Source: Rippkaea orientalis PCC 8801 (GTDB lineage Bacteria > Cyanobacteriota > Cyanobacteriia > Cyanobacteriales > Microcystaceae). From it: DNA of 64,000 bases. The stretch lies in contig NC_011726.1 of NCBI RefSeq assembly GCF_000021805.1, forward strand, positions 2,636,097 to 2,700,096, written 5' to 3'. The notes under the pieces were generated by a model, which was not told where the DNA came from, searched no databases, and saw nothing but the letters and a program-made list of their open reading frames with translations. Positions 20,033-39,224 of the stretch are shown here, piece by piece (the first letter of the stretch is position 1; each line of letters starts with the position of its first letter). The translations under genes and the position numbers were made by a program.

Positions 20033-20395
20033 TCAATCATCTAAGATAATATCTTGGTACAAGCCCTTGTGTTTTAAATTAATTATTTGTGCGACTGCTT
20101 CTAGATTAATCACTCCGTATACATGAGGAAATTTTTCGTCTTGATGACAGACTAGAGAGCTATTATTATTGGGATGACTAGGGGCTTCCCATTTTACCTG
20201 CGAGGTGAGTTTTTCGGAATCAACACACAGAACAATTAAGTCATTAGAATCTTGATAAAAAGTTTTAGCAACTTTCATCACTTGACTATTGGTAGAACAA
20301 TGAATAAATCCCTCTATTTCTAAAGAGTTAGTGCGATAGTATCCTAAATTTTTTGCCGCTTGCCATTGTTCTGGTGTAGTAATATGAAAAATCAT
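20033..20395 (-). CDS. DUF952 family protein
   Basis: The 120-residue protein begins MIFHITTPEQWQAAKNLGYY and continues EGFIHCSTNSQVMKVA. These match the DUF952 family, a fold related to ADP-ribosyltransferase-like and 2'-phosphotransferase (Tpt1/KptA-like) proteins according to published classifications. The function is not established. The start ATG is at 20395. It is leftward, 29 bp after the anbu stop, and could be the last gene of that transcript. No membrane segment is present. Confidence 0.8.
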   Translation of the reverse strand: MIFHITTPEQWQAAKNLGYYRTNSLEIEGFIHCSTNSQVMKVAKTFYQDSNDLIVLCVDSEKLTSQVKWEAPSHPNNNSSLVCHQDEKFPHVYGVINLEAVAQIINLKHKGLYQDIILDD

Positions 20396-20424: not shown

Positions 20425-21192
20425 TTAATCAATCAAAATATCATCATTAGACTGACTTTCTTCGGGTTCCCATTCAAGATTAGGCATGGCATCAAAGGCA
20501 GAACGAACATGATCTTCCCATAGCTTACGCATCTTAGCTAAATAGGGATCACCTAAGCGCAGTTCTAATTTATGACGAACCACTAAAGTGTCCATTTCAT
20601 ACATGATTAAATTAATCGGCGGTCCCACAGAAATATTCGATTTCATCGTAGAATCGATGGATAAAAGAGCACATTTTGCCATCGCATCTAAGGGAGTATC
20701 GTATTTAATCGTTCGATCTAAAATCGGTTTACCATATTTAGTCTCTCCAATTTGTAAAAAAGGCGTTTCTTTGGTGGCTTGGATAAAGTTTCCTTGGGGA
20801 TAAATTAAATACAATTGAGCATTTTCTCCTTGGACTTGTCCTCCTAATAAAAAACTACATTGATAATCAATATTATTCCGTTCTAACCAAGGGCGATCGC
20901 TGTCTTGAATTTCTCTACTTTTTTCCCCAATATAGTGGGCAATATCATACATACTAGGCAAATTATAAAGATTTCTTGGTTCTCCATGATGCAAATCGCG
21001 TTTGAGTTGAGTAATGACTCCTTGGGTAATAGAAAGATTCCCCGAAGAACAGATTACAATTGCCCTTTCTCCAGCTAAGGAAAAATCAAATAATTTGCGG
21101 TAAGCTGAGATATAATCGACACCAGCATTAGTACGGGAATCAGCCCCCATAACGATCCCAAAGCGATTAATAATTCCTAAACAGTATGTCAT
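20425..21192 (-). CDS. Anbu (bacterial proteasome-related) peptidase
   Basis: This proteasome-type N-terminal hydrolase of 255 residues starts MTYCLGI. Removal of Met would expose the catalytic Thr, with Asp17 (GADSRTNAG) and Lys32 (YRKLFDF) at the proteasome-like positions counted from that Thr. I therefore prefer ATG 21192 over an upstream in-frame ATG at 21216 that would bury the threonine behind eight residues. Anbu subunits form open helical or ring assemblies, and their substrates are unknown. The C-terminus is acidic (WEPEESQSNDDILID). A small gene ends 36 bp upstream. The usual alpha-E/ATP-grasp/transglutaminase partners of Anbu are not next to it. Confidence 0.85.
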   Translation of the reverse strand: MTYCLGIINRFGIVMGADSRTNAGVDYISAYRKLFDFSLAGERAIVICSSGNLSITQGVITQLKRDLHHGEPRNLYNLPSMYDIAHYIGEKSREIQDSDRPWLERNNIDYQCSFLLGGQVQGENAQLYLIYPQGNFIQATKETPFLQIGETKYGKPILDRTIKYDTPLDAMAKCALLSIDSTMKSNISVGPPINLIMYEMDTLVVRHKLELRLGDPYLAKMRKLWEDHVRSAFDAMPNLEWEPEESQSNDDILID

Positions 21193-21228
21193 AGGTAGTG
21201 GATTAAACAGAATCAAAAAGTTAGTGAA

Positions 21229-21875: not shown

Positions 21876-23093
21876 ATGAAAACTCAATCTTTAATCTCTC
21901 TTTTATTAACCTTTGCTGCTATCAGTTTTATTCAATCTTGTGGCAATAATAATCCTACTCAATCTGATAATCAAACGACAACAAAACCTTCTGAAACAAC
22001 GACAGAAACTGTCCCCGTCGTTAACCCTGAACCTTCTCTCGCTCCCTTAGCTAAGTTTGATAAAGCAAAGGCAGAACGGTTAACCAATACAGCTAAAACG
22101 ATTGCGGGAATGAAGATTGATGATAATAGCAAATTAGCTGAACTTCAAAAAACTCAAGCGTGGAATAATTACCGTAATTCTTTAGAAAACTCCTGGTCAA
22201 AATTAGAGACTCAACAACTCTCTAAAGTCAGACAATGGTCAGGTAAAGAATTACCCTCCATTAATGACAATTCCTCTACCGTTTTCTATCCCTTTAGTGG
22301 ACCTGATTTTCTCTATGCCTATTCTTTATTTCCCAAAGCACAAGAATATGTTTTAGTAGCCCTTGAACCCGTAGGAAAACTCCCTGATTTTGAGACACTT
22401 TCTACTAATCAACAGATCCAAAAATTACAAGAATCCCAAAATGCCCTTTATGCGATTCTTAAATTCAGTTTCTTTCGTACTAATGATATGAAAGTAGACA
22501 TGACTAAGCAAGGAGTTTTACCGGTTTTGTTTTTGTTTTTAGCAAGAACAAATAATCAAATTCTTGATCTTCAATACGTTGGAATTAACTCTCAAGCTAA
22601 CATTCAAAAGTTTGCTAATAGCATGATACCAGGGGTTAAAATTAACTTTCTTCCTCAAGGAGAATCTACCCCCCGCACACTCTATTATTTTTCGACGGAT
22701 TTATCAGATGCAGGACTGAAAAAAACACCACAGTTTAGTCAATTTGTAAAACAATTAGAGACTCCTGTGACTTATCTTAAAGCTTCCTCTTATCTAATGC
22801 ACTATGGGACGTTTTCTAATATACGGGAGCTGATTTTATCGAAAACCACCAGTTTAGTTCAAGATGATTCGGGAATTGCCCTTAAATATTTTAACCCTGA
22901 ACAATGGGACTTAAAATTTTTTGGTAACTATACCCCTCCTCGTGCCCCTTTTAACCAAGAGGAATACCAACCCAATTTGATGCAAGTCTATCGCAGTAAT
23001 AAAAATATTAGTAAGATAGATTTTGGTATTGGTTACAATTTTGGACCCAATGAATCCAATTTAATGATAGCGATTCCCAAGGCAAAAACTTAA
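21876..23093 (+). CDS. Putative lipoprotein, conserved cyanobacterial hypothetical
   Basis: The 405-residue protein has an N-terminal hydrophobic segment ending SFIQSCGNNN, a plausible though imperfect lipobox with Cys22 as lipid anchor. A Thr/Gln/Pro-rich linker (about 23-55) follows. The mature domain contains the motif FYPFSGPDFLYAYSLFPKA and a second half with LKYFNPEQWDLKFFGNYTPP. I recognise these as features of an uncharacterised bacterial family but give no function. It probably resides in the periplasm or on the outer face of a membrane. It is isolated, with a leftward cluster downstream. Confidence 0.75.
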   Translation: MKTQSLISLLLTFAAISFIQSCGNNNPTQSDNQTTTKPSETTTETVPVVNPEPSLAPLAKFDKAKAERLTNTAKTIAGMKIDDNSKLAELQKTQAWNNYRNSLENSWSKLETQQLSKVRQWSGKELPSINDNSSTVFYPFSGPDFLYAYSLFPKAQEYVLVALEPVGKLPDFETLSTNQQIQKLQESQNALYAILKFSFFRTNDMKVDMTKQGVLPVLFLFLARTNNQILDLQYVGINSQANIQKFANSMIPGVKINFLPQGESTPRTLYYFSTDLSDAGLKKTPQFSQFVKQLETPVTYLKASSYLMHYGTFSNIRELILSKTTSLVQDDSGIALKYFNPEQWDLKFFGNYTPPRAPFNQEEYQPNLMQVYRSNKNISKIDFGIGYNFGPNESNLMIAIPKAKT

Positions 23094-23415
23094 GCCCAAT
23101 CTCAATAACAGATTAACTTTAATTTAAATGCACGATGTTGTCCTCTGATGGCAAGTTGGAGAATTTCCTGACAAATTTTTAAGCCATTTTCACTAAGGAG
23201 GTCGGTATAAATAAAGGTAGGGTGGGCAATGTCAACCAAAAAGCAGCAAATAGTGTAGCGATCAGGGTTTCTAGCAGTAACTGTGCTTCGAGTTTTTCAG
23301 CCAATAAATTGATTAGGTTGACCACAGAACAACCAACTATTGCATTTCTACAATGTCTTAAAAAGTGGCAACGTTCAAAATAATTGGACATAGGATAAAG
23401 AATGTAGCAATTCTT
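23094..23415. other. Intergenic region with one dispersed-repeat copy
   Basis: About 320 bases. GGTAGGGTGGGCAATGTCAA (from 23216) is a decayed copy of the GGGTGGGCAATGCCCACC repeat found three more times in the window. Open frames exist on both strands but resemble no protein I know and lack good starts, so no gene is called. Confidence 0.5.
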
Positions 23416-24006
23416 TTATACTACCACTTGAGCCATGGTCGTTACAGTAATAATTTTAGGATCTTCTTGCACTGTTTCAAACTTCCAACCCATCTGAGCA
23501 GAATAATCATTAATAATCGTCAAAAGTCCTAACCCAGAAACTTCATGATTGGGATTTCTGACACTGTTTTCGATTTCAGAAATATAGCGAGCATCAAGAT
23601 CGCAAGTAAGTAATTCTTGAATAAAAGCTTGAAAACTCTCCACGGTTTCAGGTCGAATACTATTTTTAGCAAAAATAATGGCTTTCATCCCCAAATTATC
23701 GACAAAATTGACCCCGACTTGAATTTGATACTTTGATTTTTCATCATTATATTTAATTGCATTTTCCAACAATTCATTGGCAATAAAGCTGACTGAATTT
23801 CTACTAATAGCTATTTTTTTTTGTCGTTCAACATCATCAATATCAATGGGCAAAAAAGAGGTAAAATAATCCGCAATAAAATGAGCCGATAAGCGATTAT
23901 TTCGCCAGCGTTTTTTAATCGGATCAGCATGGGGTGTAAAAATGATTTGTAAACAATCATGAGAGGGGATAAATTCCTCTAAAAACTGACCAAAAACTTG
24001 AGACAT
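23416..24006 (-). CDS. GHKL ATPase-domain protein (Slr1861-like)
   Basis: The 196-residue protein carries a histidine-kinase-type ATP-binding fold: an N box (SFIANELLENAIKYN, about 71-85) and a glycine-rich segment (SGLGLLTIINDYSAQMGWKF, about 158-177). There is no dimerisation histidine. Slr1861 in the Synechocystis icfG cluster has this layout and is thought to act like an anti-sigma/RsbW-type switch kinase. It is the third leftward gene after two SpoIIE-type phosphatases, 305 bp past the larger one. The expected partner, a STAS antagonist, is not seen within this window. The function is inferred from the family. Confidence 0.75.
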   Translation of the reverse strand: MSQVFGQFLEEFIPSHDCLQIIFTPHADPIKKRWRNNRLSAHFIADYFTSFLPIDIDDVERQKKIAISRNSVSFIANELLENAIKYNDEKSKYQIQVGVNFVDNLGMKAIIFAKNSIRPETVESFQAFIQELLTCDLDARYISEIENSVRNPNHEVSGLGLLTIINDYSAQMGWKFETVQEDPKIITVTTMAQVVV

Positions 24007-24132
24007 AGTTACTTGTATAATCTATAACTCGGTTAACTTAATAACAATCTTATCATATTATTGGTTTTTCTCTGAATCCTTGATATAGTAAGTCTATTGA
24101 AATTGTCAACGAACTGGTGAGAAGAAGGAAAC

Positions 24133-24162
24133 GAGGAACGGGGAACGGGGAACAGGGAACGG
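24133..24162. repeat. Heptanucleotide tandem repeat (STRR type)
   Basis: Four consecutive seven-base units, GAGGAAC, GGGGAAC, GGGGAAC and AGGGAAC, followed by GG. Short tandemly repeated heptamers of this kind are dispersed in cyanobacterial genomes. It lies in the 305-bp spacer between the GHKL protein and the large phosphatase. Confidence 0.8.
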
Positions 24163-24248
24163 ATAATTTTTACAACTCAAATGGAAATGCTATAGATAAG
24201 TTTAAAACAGAATTTCAGGAGAAGTGCCCATCTATTCATTTAACTTCT

Positions 24249-24277
24249 GTAGGGGCTTAATATTATTAAGCCCCTAC
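24249..24277. repeat. 29-bp palindrome, copy 1
   Basis: GTAGGGGCTTAATA (24249-24262), one central T, then its exact complement (24264-24277). A near-identical palindrome stands at 39195-39221, so this is a dispersed family. It lies 34 bp beyond the stop of the large leftward phosphatase and could also act as its terminator. Confidence 0.85.
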
Positions 24278-24311
24278 TCACTACTAAATACTGACTTCAT
24301 TCAACTTTACC

Positions 24312-27215
24312 TCATTTTTGTTTAAGCACCAACAAAGTAATATCATCAAAAACTTTTTGTTCTCCAATATGCTGATACACATCTTCAATCACTGCCTCTT
24401 GAATTTCTTGTGCGGACTTTTGCCAACTTTGACTAACAACGTCACATAATCTGTTTAATCCATAAAAATTCCTATTAATATCTTTTGCTTCCGTAATACC
24501 ATCAGTATAGAGAATAACCCCATCTCCGGGGTTTAATTCAACACAAACTTGATCAACAAAATGGGAAATGTCATGATCTAAACCAATCGGAAAGCCGAGA
24601 TCTATTGTATTAATTCGTTCAATTTTTCCTCCAGAACGAACCAGTAAAATTTCTTCATGTTGGCCACTTATTCTCAGTTGTCTTTGGTAATAATGAAGAA
24701 TCCCTAAGCTCAAGTTTTTATCGGAATTCATTCGTTGTAAATTTTGATAGATTGTGCGATTTAAAGCCGATAGAAAGCGAATAGGATCAGTTTCTCCTAT
24801 TTCTTTAAGAGTCCGTACTGCTGTTTGAGTCATGACCATTAAAATCCCACTTTCTAAACCATGGCCGGTAACATCTCCAATGCCTAAAGTAACGATTCCA
24901 TCATGATGCAAAACATCATAATAATCTCCTCCAACTTCCGCAGCAGGTTTCATAAATCCAGCTAACTCTAATCCTTCAATTCCTCTTAATTCTTCAACTT
25001 TTGGTAAAATCATCTGCTGCATTTGAAAAACAACGTTAAGTTCTGCACTCATGCGAACATTTTCTAACCTTAATTTGTTATTGAGATCGGTAATTTCTTG
25101 ATTAGCTGCTGCTAGTTGAGCCGTGCGTTTACTAACAATACTTTCTAAGGTTTGTTCTAATTCCTTACGAGCCGTAATTTCTGTCCGAATACTTAAATAC
25201 TGAAAGGGACGACCAGTTTTATCCAAAAAAGGAATAATGGTACTATTAACCCAATAAAATGCTCCATCTTTGGTTTTATTTTTAATTTCTCCTTGCCAAA
25301 TTTGTCCACTAGAAATAGTTGACCAAAGCTCTTTATAAAAGGCGCGATCATGATAACCCGATTTGAGTATACGATGGTTATTACCAATTAATTCCTCTGG
25401 GGAATATTGAGATACTTCACAAAACTTATCATTAACATAATTAATATTACCTTGAGCATCGGTAATCGTAACAATAGCTAATTGATCTAATGCGTATTTG
25501 ATATCTGATAATTCTTTAACGGTTTGAGTCAGCTTTTCTTCAGCTTTTTTGCGTTCTGTAATATTAATGCCAATGGAAACTGTCGCATTACCACCTTGAT
25601 ATTTTTGAGCAGCGATAAGATAATATTCTAGGCAGTCATTGAAGGTTATTTCAACCACTTGCGAATCCGCATCTTTAGAACTTTCTAGAAAGCTAAACAA
25701 AAACTCGATTAAGTGATCATTTCCTTGGAGAAATCCAATAGGTTTCCCGATAAATTCTTCTGCTGGCAAATTCCACTTATCAGATAGGTAACGGTTAACA
25801 CCTAGATAAAATCCTTGAGAATCAATCCAAGAAATTGAACCAGGAACTGCGTCTAAAATTGTTTCTAATTTTTCTTTGGCTTCTAATAAATCAGCTTTTG
25901 CTTGCTCAAGATCTTCATTTTTAGCTTCTAACGCTTCAAAATAATCTTTAATTTGATTTGCCATAACATTGAAAGTTATTCCTAAGCTTTCTAATTCTTT
26001 TATCCCTTTAATATTGACTTTGGTTTTAAGATTTCCTTCTGCAATTTGTTGAGCGGCTTGATTTAGTTGTAAAATCAGTTCAACAATCCACCGCGAGGTC
26101 AAAAGTCCCAAGGTTGTTGCTAAAATTAAAGCAGCAATAACTAAAGCAAAAGTTGTCTTATTATTTGCCTCGATTTGTTGCATAAAATCGCTTTCAGGGA
26201 CAACAATAACAATGTACCAATCCAGTCCAAAATCATCTTGAAAAGGCAATACTTTCATAAAGTGATGCTTGCCATGAATTTTAAATTTTAGTTTTTGAGG
26301 AATATCGATCGGGATAATATCTTCTGGTGATGCTGTTTTTATATTTCCCAACGTTTTCTGTAAATAAAATGCTGCTGGACGAATTAAGGAATCTTCAAGA
26401 TTGGTAGCACTAAGTCGCTGAGGTTGATTATCAACCATTAAAAAAGGCGATTTAGCAGAAGAACTAGCTACTAATTGACCTGAACTTTCTATAATAAATG
26501 TCTTACCCGATCGCCCAATTTTTAAACTGCGAAGAAAGTCACTAATTTGCAGTAGGGTTAAATCCGTTGCTAAGACCCCTTGAAATTTGCCGTTTTTATC
26601 ATAATAAGATTCACCCAACGTAATGGCTAAGGTAGGAGGACTAACCCAAGGATAAATTTGACTCCAGACGGGTTTTCCTGCTCTTTCAGAAGCAATATAC
26701 CAGGGTTGAAGACGGGCATCAAAACCTATATACGTCCTTAGTCTTTCTCGACGATTTCCTTGACTATTAATAGCGTAGGTTTGTAAGTCACCTGATCGAT
26801 CTCTTTCTTGATAATCAAGAGTTCCATCATCATTGATCGCTAATCCAATAAATTTTCCATCAACACCAGCAAACTGAATTTTACTAACTAACTCAAAAAC
26901 TTGTGCCTGTTGCCAAAAATGACGTTCAATTGCCTTGATATTCTGGAGATTTAATTGCCCCAAATTTAACGCATTTTTATTAAGCTGATTAACCAGATGG
27001 GGAGTCCCTAAATAACTGTTCAAACGCTCAATAATGACATTGCTAACTTCATTGGTTAACTGACCCGCTAAATCTTCAACGGCTTTCTGACCATTTCTAA
27101 AGGAAAGATAACCCACCAAACCCACTGCACCAACAATTTGAATGACAAAAGGAACCACGAGGACGGTTCTCAAGGGAATTTTATACTGAAATTTTTGCAG
27201 CAGCGTGATTAACAT
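24312..27215 (-). CDS. Membrane sensor phosphatase: Cache-HAMP-PAS-PAS-SpoIIE/PP2C
   Basis: The 967-residue protein has an N-terminal membrane segment (about 17-39), a large extracytoplasmic Cache-like sensor domain and a second segment (about 350-375). HAMP, coiled coil, two PAS domains (the second with ITDAQGNINYVNDKFCEV) and another coiled coil follow. The C-terminal SpoIIE-type PP2C domain (from about 735) carries metal-binding aspartates in GGDYYDVL, GDVTGHG, YTDGITEA and FDDITLLVL. The layout matches IcfG/RsbU-like phosphatases, which dephosphorylate STAS antagonists in partner-switching circuits. It lies downstream of a shorter paralogue and upstream of a GHKL ATPase. Confidence 0.9.
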   Translation of the reverse strand: MLITLLQKFQYKIPLRTVLVVPFVIQIVGAVGLVGYLSFRNGQKAVEDLAGQLTNEVSNVIIERLNSYLGTPHLVNQLNKNALNLGQLNLQNIKAIERHFWQQAQVFELVSKIQFAGVDGKFIGLAINDDGTLDYQERDRSGDLQTYAINSQGNRRERLRTYIGFDARLQPWYIASERAGKPVWSQIYPWVSPPTLAITLGESYYDKNGKFQGVLATDLTLLQISDFLRSLKIGRSGKTFIIESSGQLVASSSAKSPFLMVDNQPQRLSATNLEDSLIRPAAFYLQKTLGNIKTASPEDIIPIDIPQKLKFKIHGKHHFMKVLPFQDDFGLDWYIVIVVPESDFMQQIEANNKTTFALVIAALILATTLGLLTSRWIVELILQLNQAAQQIAEGNLKTKVNIKGIKELESLGITFNVMANQIKDYFEALEAKNEDLEQAKADLLEAKEKLETILDAVPGSISWIDSQGFYLGVNRYLSDKWNLPAEEFIGKPIGFLQGNDHLIEFLFSFLESSKDADSQVVEITFNDCLEYYLIAAQKYQGGNATVSIGINITERKKAEEKLTQTVKELSDIKYALDQLAIVTITDAQGNINYVNDKFCEVSQYSPEELIGNNHRILKSGYHDRAFYKELWSTISSGQIWQGEIKNKTKDGAFYWVNSTIIPFLDKTGRPFQYLSIRTEITARKELEQTLESIVSKRTAQLAAANQEITDLNNKLRLENVRMSAELNVVFQMQQMILPKVEELRGIEGLELAGFMKPAAEVGGDYYDVLHHDGIVTLGIGDVTGHGLESGILMVMTQTAVRTLKEIGETDPIRFLSALNRTIYQNLQRMNSDKNLSLGILHYYQRQLRISGQHEEILLVRSGGKIERINTIDLGFPIGLDHDISHFVDQVCVELNPGDGVILYTDGITEAKDINRNFYGLNRLCDVVSQSWQKSAQEIQEAVIEDVYQHIGEQKVFDDITLLVLKQK

Positions 27216-27390
27216 AAGTTCAGATTAATATCTGAGGATTCAACAACACTATCACAGCCTCTAGGGAAAACAACAACGTTTTTTGTGCAAGGGGTTGGGT
27301 AACTTGGTATTATCTTTATTATAAGGCCGACCATGATTAAAGGAAGTCAGTATATTTTCGGGATTGTCTGTTTTGTTTAGAAAGTTCTTT

Positions 27391-28146
27391 TTATTTTTGT
27401 TTAAGTATCAACAACGTAATATCATCAAAAATCTTTTCTGTTCCAATATGTTGGTAGACATCTTTAATAACCGCTTCTTGAATTTCCTGTGCAGATTTTG
27501 ACCACATTTCACTGACAACTTCACATAATTTTTCAACTCCATAAAAGTTTTTACTCATATCTTTTGCTTCGGTAATACCATCGGTATAAAGAACAACCCC
27601 ATCCCCCGTATTTAGCTGGACACAAATTTGATCAATAAAGTGAGAAATCTCGTGATCTAACCCAATGGGAAGACCTAAATCAATAGTCTCAATTCTTTCA
27701 ATTTTTCCGCCAGAATGTACCACCAAAATCTCTTCATGTTGACCACTGATACTCAGTTGACCTTCGCAATAATGAAGAATACCTAGAGTCAGACTTTTAT
27801 CTGAGTTCATCCGTTTGATATTTTGATAAATCGTTCGGTTGAGGGTAGATAAAAATTTTACGGGGTCAGTTTCTCCCATTTCTTTGAGGGTGCGTACTGC
27901 GGTTTGCGTCATGACCATTAAAATCCCACTTTCTAGTCCATGACCGGTAACATCTCCAATGCCTAAAGTAACAACTCCATTATGATGTAAAACATCATAA
28001 TAATCTCCTCCCACTTCTTCGGCCGGTTTCATATATCCAGCTAAATCAAGTTCCTCGATTTTTTCAAGTTCTTCAAGTTTGGGTAAGATCATCTGCTGCA
28101 TTTGACAGACAATACTGACTTGCTGTTTTTCGATACTAAAAGCCAA
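27391..28146 (-). CDS. Stand-alone SpoIIE/PP2C phosphatase, paralogue of the neighbour
   Basis: The 251-residue protein is almost wholly a SpoIIE-type PP2C domain, with the same motifs as the C-terminus of the 967-residue gene downstream: GGDYYDVLHH, GDVTGHGLESGILMVMTQTA, YTDGITEAKD and FDDITLL. Identity is high through the whole domain, pointing to a tandem duplication that kept only the catalytic part, with a short N-terminal MAFSIEKQQVSIVCQMQQM. All metal ligands seen in the family remain, so activity is likely. It has no sensor domain and would depend on another protein for input. Confidence 0.88.
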   Translation of the reverse strand: MAFSIEKQQVSIVCQMQQMILPKLEELEKIEELDLAGYMKPAEEVGGDYYDVLHHNGVVTLGIGDVTGHGLESGILMVMTQTAVRTLKEMGETDPVKFLSTLNRTIYQNIKRMNSDKSLTLGILHYCEGQLSISGQHEEILVVHSGGKIERIETIDLGLPIGLDHEISHFIDQICVQLNTGDGVVLYTDGITEAKDMSKNFYGVEKLCEVVSEMWSKSAQEIQEAVIKDVYQHIGTEKIFDDITLLILKQK

Positions 28147-28203: not shown

Positions 28204-28232
28204 TTGCCAGTATGGGAAATTAGGACTATAAT
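28204..28232 (+). promoter_or_regulatory. Promoter of ssrA
   Basis: TTGCCA (28204-28209), 17 bases, TATAAT (28227-28232): near-consensus sigma-70 spacing and sequence, 15 bp before the mature tmRNA 5' end. The leftward phosphatase gene starts 57 bp away on the other strand. Confidence 0.8.
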
Positions 28233-28247
28233 GAAAGGAGAACACAA

Positions 28248-28632
28248 GGGGCCGTAACGGTTTCGACAGGTTGGCGAAAGCTGCCCCGTGATTCAGGTCG
28301 AGAGTGAGTCTCCTCTCGTAAATCCAAGGCTCAAACAAAAAGTAACTGCGAATAACATCGTTAGCTTCAAGCGTGTAGCCGTAGCTGCCTAGATTCTAGA
28401 CTCGTCAGAGTACGCTTACTTCTATTGTGACTCCGTTAAGCATTAGAGGTAAACCCCAACGGATGCACCCTTTAGTTACCTCTGGTTGACTGTTGGGTAA
28501 AGACTTCACCAGAGCATCCCATCATTCGGGATAATGAATGGTTCCCGTCCTGCGGATCAAAAGGACTAAGCCTGTGAATGAGCGGAAAGTTAATACCCAG
28601 TCTGGACAGCAGTTCGACTCTGCTCGGCTCCA
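28248..28632 (+). ncRNA. ssrA: Transfer-messenger RNA (tmRNA)
   Basis: The 5' end GGGGCCGTAACGGTTTCGAC pairs with the 3' end GTTCGACTCTGCTCGGCTCC to form the tRNA-like domain with a T arm. The tag reading frame runs 28348-28392 and encodes ANNIVSFKRVAVAA followed by TAG, differing by one residue from the ANNIVSFKRVAIAA tag I recall for Synechocystis. CCA is not encoded and must be added. It rescues ribosomes stalled on broken mRNAs and marks the product for ClpXP. It is a one-piece tmRNA, not permuted. The 3' end is placed at the discriminator A. Confidence 0.97.
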
Positions 28633-39157: not shown

Positions 39158-39194
39158 TCAAGACTGACGCTACATTAACGAAGTCAGAAGTCAG

Positions 39195-39221
39195 TAGTGG
39201 CTTAATAATATTAAGCCACTA
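39195..39221. repeat. 27-bp palindrome, copy 2
   Basis: TAGTGGCTTAATA (39195-39207), a central A, and its exact complement (39209-39221). It differs from the copy at 24249-24277 at only a few positions. It abuts the left end of the MITE-like element at 39225. Confidence 0.85.
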
Positions 39222-39224
39222 CAG

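Follow-up and report, generated by a model that had tools for sequence, protein, structure and literature searches.

Introduction

Several described switches combine a PP2C phosphatase with a kinase and a STAS protein and resemble the gene cluster analysed here. The closest is the Slr1658/Slr1659 system of Synechocystis PCC 6803 (NCBIfam NF052618, NF047703 and NF047705), in which disruption of slr1658 is reported to lessen recovery from iron limitation and to raise Pgr5 by a mechanism described as still to be identified (PMC7555055, citing Zer 2018). SiaABCD of Pseudomonas aeruginosa likewise uses a PP2C phosphatase, a GHKL-type kinase and a STAS-related phospho-target. Phosphorylation of SiaC by SiaB is reported to block activation of the cyclase SiaD (PMC8457831), so that the output of such a switch need not be a sigma factor. 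The icfG cluster of Synechocystis (Slr1856/1859/IcfG/Slr1861) also pairs a PP2C with a GHKL kinase. According to one account, Slr1861 phosphorylates Ssr1600, Slr1856 and Slr1859, and IcfG dephosphorylates Slr1856 (PMC12329169); one kinase serving several antagonists, one of them outside the operon, is therefore known in the icfG family. HmpU/V/W of Nostoc punctiforme is, by its description, a further cyanobacterial phosphatase/STAS/kinase switch, and the target of its STAS protein is said not to be known (PMC8256260).

Gas sensing by H-NOX proteins has been linked to other kinds of output. In cyanobacteria, H-NOX genes accompany genes for GGDEF proteins or for histidine kinases that carry HNOBA. 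A review assigns bacterial H-NOX proteins three kinds of partner, namely histidine kinases, c-di-GMP enzymes and a hybrid kinase/phosphatase, with neither PP2C nor SpoIIE mentioned in the available portion of its text (PMC8738867). In the accessible part of a paper on the signalling helix, HNOBA and PP2C are named separately (PMC1592074). An H-NOX protein acting on a PP2C was not found in a literature survey at the level of titles and abstract openings that covered few subscription papers. A looser precedent for gas sensing that reaches a PP2C is the O2-sensing stressosome of Vibrio brasiliensis, where a haem gas sensor is described upstream of a PP2C-type phosphatase; there, however, a haem RsbR and a putative RsbU belong to a stressosome complex and do not form an H-NOX/HNOBA-PP2C protein, and the genome is said to lack RsbV and RsbW (PMC4976288).

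The window examined here is a 64,000-nucleotide stretch of the Rippkaea orientalis PCC 8801 genome (4.79 Mb, 4 contigs). Three open reading frames on its minus strand, in the order small PP2C, large dCache-HAMP-PAS-PAS-PP2C phosphatase and GHKL-like protein, had been predicted from the sequence to form an icfG-like unit with a duplicated phosphatase and no STAS antagonist. The three adjacent genes, the duplication and the local absence of a STAS gene are all borne out below. The icfG label is wrong, because the kinase belongs to the Slr1658/DUF6272 family. The cluster is read here, with moderate confidence, as a satellite input branch of an Slr1658/Slr1659-type partner switch in which the small PP2C would be a truncated gas-sensor phosphatase.

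Layout of the cluster

The features of the cluster and of the loci compared with it are collected in Table 1. The second PAS repeat of the large phosphatase is visible only as two TIGR00229 stretches. In the sister genome UBA12306 the gap between the large PP2C and kinase genes is 2 bp, against the much longer spacer of the window. Copies of a short palindromic repeat from this spacer also lie at 39186-39224 and elsewhere in the genome (L090, L092). The promoter-like site of the tmRNA gene is similar in UBA12306, and clear homology of the two genomes stops just upstream of it.

Table 1. Positions of the cluster genes, their neighbours and the compared loci (window coordinates unless a contig is named)
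Feature	Position	Strand	Content or match
Small PP2C (SpoIIE-type) phosphatase	27391-28146	-	251 aa; bare catalytic domain, TTG start; SpoIIE 130.2 bits
Large dCache-HAMP-PAS-PAS-PP2C sensor phosphatase	24312-27215	-	967 aa; dCache_1, HAMP, PAS and SpoIIE (130.8 bits)
Spacer between large phosphatase and kinase	24007-24311	.	305 bp
Heptamer tandem repeat in the spacer	24126-24162		AACGGGG
Predicted switch kinase	23416-24006	-	196 aa; Slr1658 family (DUF6272), SiaB-like fold
tmRNA promoter-like site	28204-28232	+	TTGCCA-17-TATAAT
tmRNA gene	28248-28632	+	divergent neighbour of the small PP2C; marks the apparently truncated cluster end
Small gene, presumably DUF952	20033-20395		also present on UBA12306 contig C307
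Window-only genes between kinase and presumed DUF952 gene	20425-21216; 21876-23093		not in the collinear UBA12306 order
Type-1 module	C3:828-832 kb		HAMP-PAS-PP2C, kinase, 117-aa STAS
Type-1 STAS protein	G000:C3:831702-832052		Slr1659-like
UBA12306 contig C68			SelO, two small genes, tmRNA (same tag peptide), H-NOX, HNOBA-PAS running off the contig end
UBA12306 contig C307 (L019)			starts within PAS; then PP2C ortholog, large PP2C, kinase, small gene

The predicted kinase and its missing partner

Against Pfam the kinase matches only DUF6272 (33.9 bits, cut-off 26.6), with no HATPase_c_2 match at E 0.001. Against NCBIfam it lies well above the cut-off of the equivalog slr1658_cyano (NF052618; 257.1 bits, cut-off 200). 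In this it resembles the Synechocystis system, as do the paralogous modules of PCC 8801, in which PP2C, kinase and STAS genes stand in a row; the window cluster differs by lacking an slr1659-type neighbour and by carrying an extra upstream PP2C. It differs from the icfG cluster in having a kinase of another family, not the RsbW-type HATPase_c_2, and no STAS gene in the cluster.

A sequence search of the PDB with the kinase gave no credible match. An AlphaFold model with six sequences as input (pLDDT 82, pTM 0.81) retrieved the SiaB-SiaC complex 6kko as its top Foldseek match (E 3e-5, TM 0.58/0.65). VIA-align likewise ranked SiaB first (Z 12.8 over 155 residues at 3.5 A), with SpoIIAB/RsbW/UsfX-type kinases next (Z 9.7-11.9). 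The protein carries NELLEN at residue 77 and SGLGLLT at residue 157, which we take to be ATP-binding boxes; kinase activity of the GHKL-type protein is therefore inferred, and we call it a predicted kinase. The likeness to the Sia system extends to the small PP2C, which has two PDB matches, one of them 6k4e, presumably SiaA. The window proteins nevertheless fall below the corresponding NCBIfam cut-offs (111.3 bits against 700 for SiaA, 33.2 against 85 for SiaB), and no SiaC or SiaD neighbour was seen at the cluster.

The list of small open reading frames in the window contains no STAS frame between or beside the cluster genes. When 22801-24400 was searched by permissive tblastn with two Slr1659-type STAS queries, the strongest hit reached E 0.024 and ran antisense to the cluster; a STAS remnant beside the kinase was rejected on these weak matches. 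Among relatives an adjacent slr1659-type STAS gene is the rule, although it is no part of the NCBIfam Slr1658 model. Within 59 related genomes, 28 of which have the kinase, an Slr1659-like STAS gene lies at most 238 bp from 32 of 35 kinases; the three without it are the window kinase, its UBA12306 ortholog and the divergent G042:C102. The original prediction, for which a STAS gene in the cluster of close relatives would have been damaging, survives this check: no STAS gene stands next to the ortholog in the nearest relative, UBA12306. In more distant homologues one is usually adjacent, as the count above shows.

A wider survey across the phylum (291 genomes, of which 47 have the kinase) placed an Slr1659-like STAS gene within 2 kb of 56 of the 61 kinases, all rows being counted, weak ones included. 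Within the 56, the pair of G286 is fragmentary and the STAS frame of G051 contains stops; the STAS rows omitted were three fragments (G051, G286, G066) and those with E 7.9e-6 or weaker, none of them near a partner-less kinase. L024, a 5-kb MAG contig where the kinase spans two frames and STAS is lacking, stands outside both partner counts. The five kinases without STAS comprise those of the window (G000), G066, G161 and G042 together with one that matches weakly (E 2e-4), in G102, a genome that has no STAS match. An adjacent PP2C is kept in G066 and G042, and none occurs within 9 kb at G161. Since all four strong cases come from genomes that also hold a complete module, such STAS-less branches are rare but recur. 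The opposite case is met in 12 genomes, where Slr1659-like STAS matches outnumber Slr1658 kinases (e.g., G143, G172, G248).

The two phosphatase domains

The PP2C domains of the small and large window proteins are 79% identical over 243 residues, and the identity is uneven along the domain in a rough look for gene conversion. In a tree of 33 rows with at least 200 aligned residues, the two window and the two UBA12306 domains form one clade (100/99) separate from the 29 other rows, within which the small PP2C and the upstream UBA12306 domain are sisters (97/84). Because of this pairing, the tandem duplication is placed by the tree at genus level in this sample and before the split from UBA12306. 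Aligning the domains had been proposed as a means of dating it; dS for the paralogs (0.95 and 0.76) is about that for the orthologs (0.88 and 0.93), so that the duplication is bracketed by the tree and not dated.

Both domains appear catalytically intact. All 58 positions that are invariant in 28 homologues are kept in the small as well as the large PP2C, and GGDYYD, GDVTGHG, YTDGI and FDDIT, whose regions we take to be the metal-ligand motifs of PP2Cs, are present in each; a loss of metal ligands, which would have spoken against the prediction, was not found in either.

A putative truncated sensor phosphatase

For the small PP2C, TTG is the sole start codon available: an in-frame stop lies 7 codons upstream of it, and the sequence up to the catalytic domain contains no ATG. 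Among 11 open reading frames of its subfamily (at least 62% identity) it is open over 258 codons, and the other ten all reach at least 392. What preceded it may be preserved in UBA12306. There, behind the H-NOX gene (PF07700, 178 bits), comes a gene for HNOBA (PF07701, 106.6 bits), which leads into a PAS-like stretch (L076/L149:2-1242 on C68), and contig C307 starts in the same PAS. The ends of the two contigs share 15 identical nucleotides and the frame is continuous. C307 also holds the ortholog of the large phosphatase (L019:1503-4412, 76% identical) and the match at DLXW01000202.1:4415-5002, which is G005:C307:4415-5002. The upstream phosphatase of UBA12306 thus appears to be an HNOBA-PAS-PP2C encoded beside an H-NOX gene. 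This is judged from the joining of two contigs in a single MAG, 87% complete, and the gene itself is interrupted by a run of N.

Gene order in the window and UBA12306 is collinear save for the H-NOX-HNOBA-PAS block and the two window-only genes, the orthology of SelO being recognised by eye. Because the upstream phosphatase of UBA12306 appears to have this architecture, the 251-aa window PP2C reads as the 3' remnant of an HNOBA-PAS-PP2C gas-sensor phosphatase, cut beside the tmRNA gene. No credible H-NOX or HNOBA remnant was found in the window, and PF07701 has no match in the PCC 8801 genome. The block may have been gained in UBA12306 and not lost in the window lineage; loss is the simpler reading of the gene order. 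A coiled-coil linker is reported to dimerize and activate RsbU-type phosphatases (PMC12143880), so that a small PP2C deprived of both sensor and linker should be unregulated, weak or silent.

As in the known H-NOX/HNOBA systems, an H-NOX gene precedes an HNOBA gene in UBA12306; the output there differs in that it appears to be a PP2C. HNOBA searches of the 59 and 291 genomes gave matches in 11 and 38, and none in 14 control genomes. At 17 HNOBA loci that were checked, no PP2C match was better than E 2.9, and the outputs read by eye were a histidine kinase or GGDEF, with the L128 stretch stopping before the gene end; beyond these 17 lie at least two strong matches (G078:C102 and G095:C1:4.96 Mb) and many rows covering only the last 30-50 model positions. 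The strongest novelty lies in the sister genome UBA12306.

Plasmids were covered as well. HNOBA had no match on them, and the PP2C matched 219 plasmid records, all below 60% identity. Two stretches without annotation were taken from these. The one from Kovacikia showed no kinase or STAS match under E 0.8 by tblastn. The one from a Sinorhizobium meliloti plasmid (L150:2691-6732), read gene by gene, encodes a weak Slr1658-like protein and a methyltransferase fusion whose other part is a weakly Slr1659-like domain, which suggests an enzyme as switch output; it also encodes a large protein with a PP2C, whose identity to the window PP2C is about 50%.

Complete modules elsewhere in the genome

The search of the genome for STAS proteins that had been suggested for this cluster returned two Slr1659-like proteins and five further STAS matches. 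Both Slr1659-like proteins exceed the cut-off of the Slr1659 superfamily (154 and 157 bits against 100) and have FLNSSG in common. One belongs to the type-1 module of Table 1. The other is of type 3 and lies at C3:3941-3945 kb (L091:4885-8660), in a module consisting of a receiver-PP2C, a CheB methylesterase, a kinase, a 114-aa STAS protein and a HAMP coiled coil. In all, the genome encodes five phosphatases of the small-PP2C subfamily (at least 62% identity), three DUF6272 kinases and these two Slr1659-like STAS proteins, only one of which is type 1.

Trees connect the window proteins with the type-1 module. In the kinase tree (38 loci and the window, duplicates of one gene dropped), the pair formed by the window and UBA12306 falls in a 14-row group with the kinase of the module at C3:830 kb (92/90, the fork not starred). 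In the PP2C tree both window domains and the PP2C of that module are on the same side (100/100). The STAS tree was built from the 35 loci having both kinase and STAS, and in it the partners of this kinase group fall in a clade supported at 99/98 that also takes in a single stray row, L029. Kinase distances correlate with STAS distances (35 pairs, r 0.74) and with PP2C distances (21 pairs, r 0.66); in neither case were any of 5000 permutations as high, and shared species history contributes to both values. Because the kinase and PP2C trees group the window proteins with this module, its STAS protein, 1.8 Mb from the cluster, is the likeliest candidate for a target in trans.

Separate antagonists for the two PP2Cs, as had been proposed, are accordingly not favoured, because both domains share one genus-specific type-1 clade and the genome has one type-1 Slr1659-like STAS protein. 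The small and large phosphatases probably differ in input signal rather than in target. Another phosphatase of the subfamily, a HAMP-PAS-PP2C preceded by a periplasmic binding protein gene, is encoded at C3:1056.9-1060.3 kb (L092:905-4256). This PP2C, at C3:1059 kb, has a Cache match below cut-off and no kinase or STAS nearby in an 8 kb stretch, and it may be a further input.

Discussion

In the reading favoured here, the conserved serine region (FLNSSG) of the distant type-1 STAS protein is where the Slr1658-like kinase and both PP2Cs would act, the kinase adding phosphate and the PP2Cs removing it. Input to the large phosphatase would come through its Cache domain. The small one would be what is left, at the C-terminal end, of an HNOBA-PAS-PP2C phosphatase that once partnered an H-NOX protein. 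It is also conceivable, if unlikely, that the cluster is simply decaying: having lost its STAS partner, H-NOX sensor and operon promoter, and with kinase and phosphatase split by an insertion, its genes would be relics of little function. The truncated small PP2C with its TTG start and the repeat-bearing spacer, so much longer than the gap in UBA12306, are in line with this. So is the dN/dS of the window kinase against UBA12306, which is 0.225 compared with 0.093 and 0.093 for its two STAS-paired paralogs (2.4x), although such a rise would fit decay or partner loss as well as a new role. Decay is harder to reconcile with three open frames and with two PP2Cs that keep every family-invariant residue. 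The dN/dS values of the kinase, the large phosphatase (0.162 in full, 0.132 for its PP2C part) and the small PP2C (0.097) are, moreover, far below 1; as single-pair NG86 estimates at dS near 1, these window-UBA12306 values are not specific to the time after truncation. The absence of a STAS gene, finally, is common to the window and UBA12306, so that the kinase has probably been without one since before the split.

The choice of substrate is a separate matter. Action of the kinase and phosphatases on something else, such as a SiaC-type regulator of a diguanylate cyclase or another STAS protein, is decidedly unlikely. It would suit the SiaB-like predicted fold, the control of a diguanylate cyclase reported for SiaABC (PMC8457831) and the five further STAS matches. 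Against it, a canonical STAS protein at C3:1938 kb is already accompanied by a HATPase_c_2 kinase and a PP2C of its own, and the trees tie the cluster to Slr1659-bearing modules. SiaC (DUF1987, PF09345) has no match in the genome, a weak argument as the control set also has none; with 17.7 bits, the two Slr1659-like STAS proteins stay below the model's cut-off of 24.5. The original idea, an icfG-like unit with a separate antagonist for each PP2C, is very improbable. The combination of PP2C and GHKL genes, the second PP2C and the presence of two Slr1659-like STAS proteins are what one would look for, but the kinase is of the Slr1658 family with no HATPase_c_2 match at the threshold used, a single clade on the type-1 side takes in both PP2Cs, and the second STAS protein is of type 3.

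The satellite branch that we prefer on these grounds may be part of a wider circuit of the genus. Tentatively, an H-NOX protein would act on an HNOBA-PAS-PP2C which, together with the Cache-PP2C and a Slr1658 kinase free of its own antagonist, would tune the STAS protein of another operon, and the window would represent a natural truncation of this arrangement. An input branch without an antagonist of its own is apparently functional here, and a lost gas sensor is possible. In Synechocystis, Slr1658 affects iron recovery and Pgr5, and its substrate is not named in the available text of PMC7555055. A STAS partner that co-varies with the kinase, together with kinase copies that have no partner, makes the switch and the sharing of an antagonist among input branches directly testable. 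If the gene of UBA12306 proves true, it would link H-NOX gas sensing to a partner switch.
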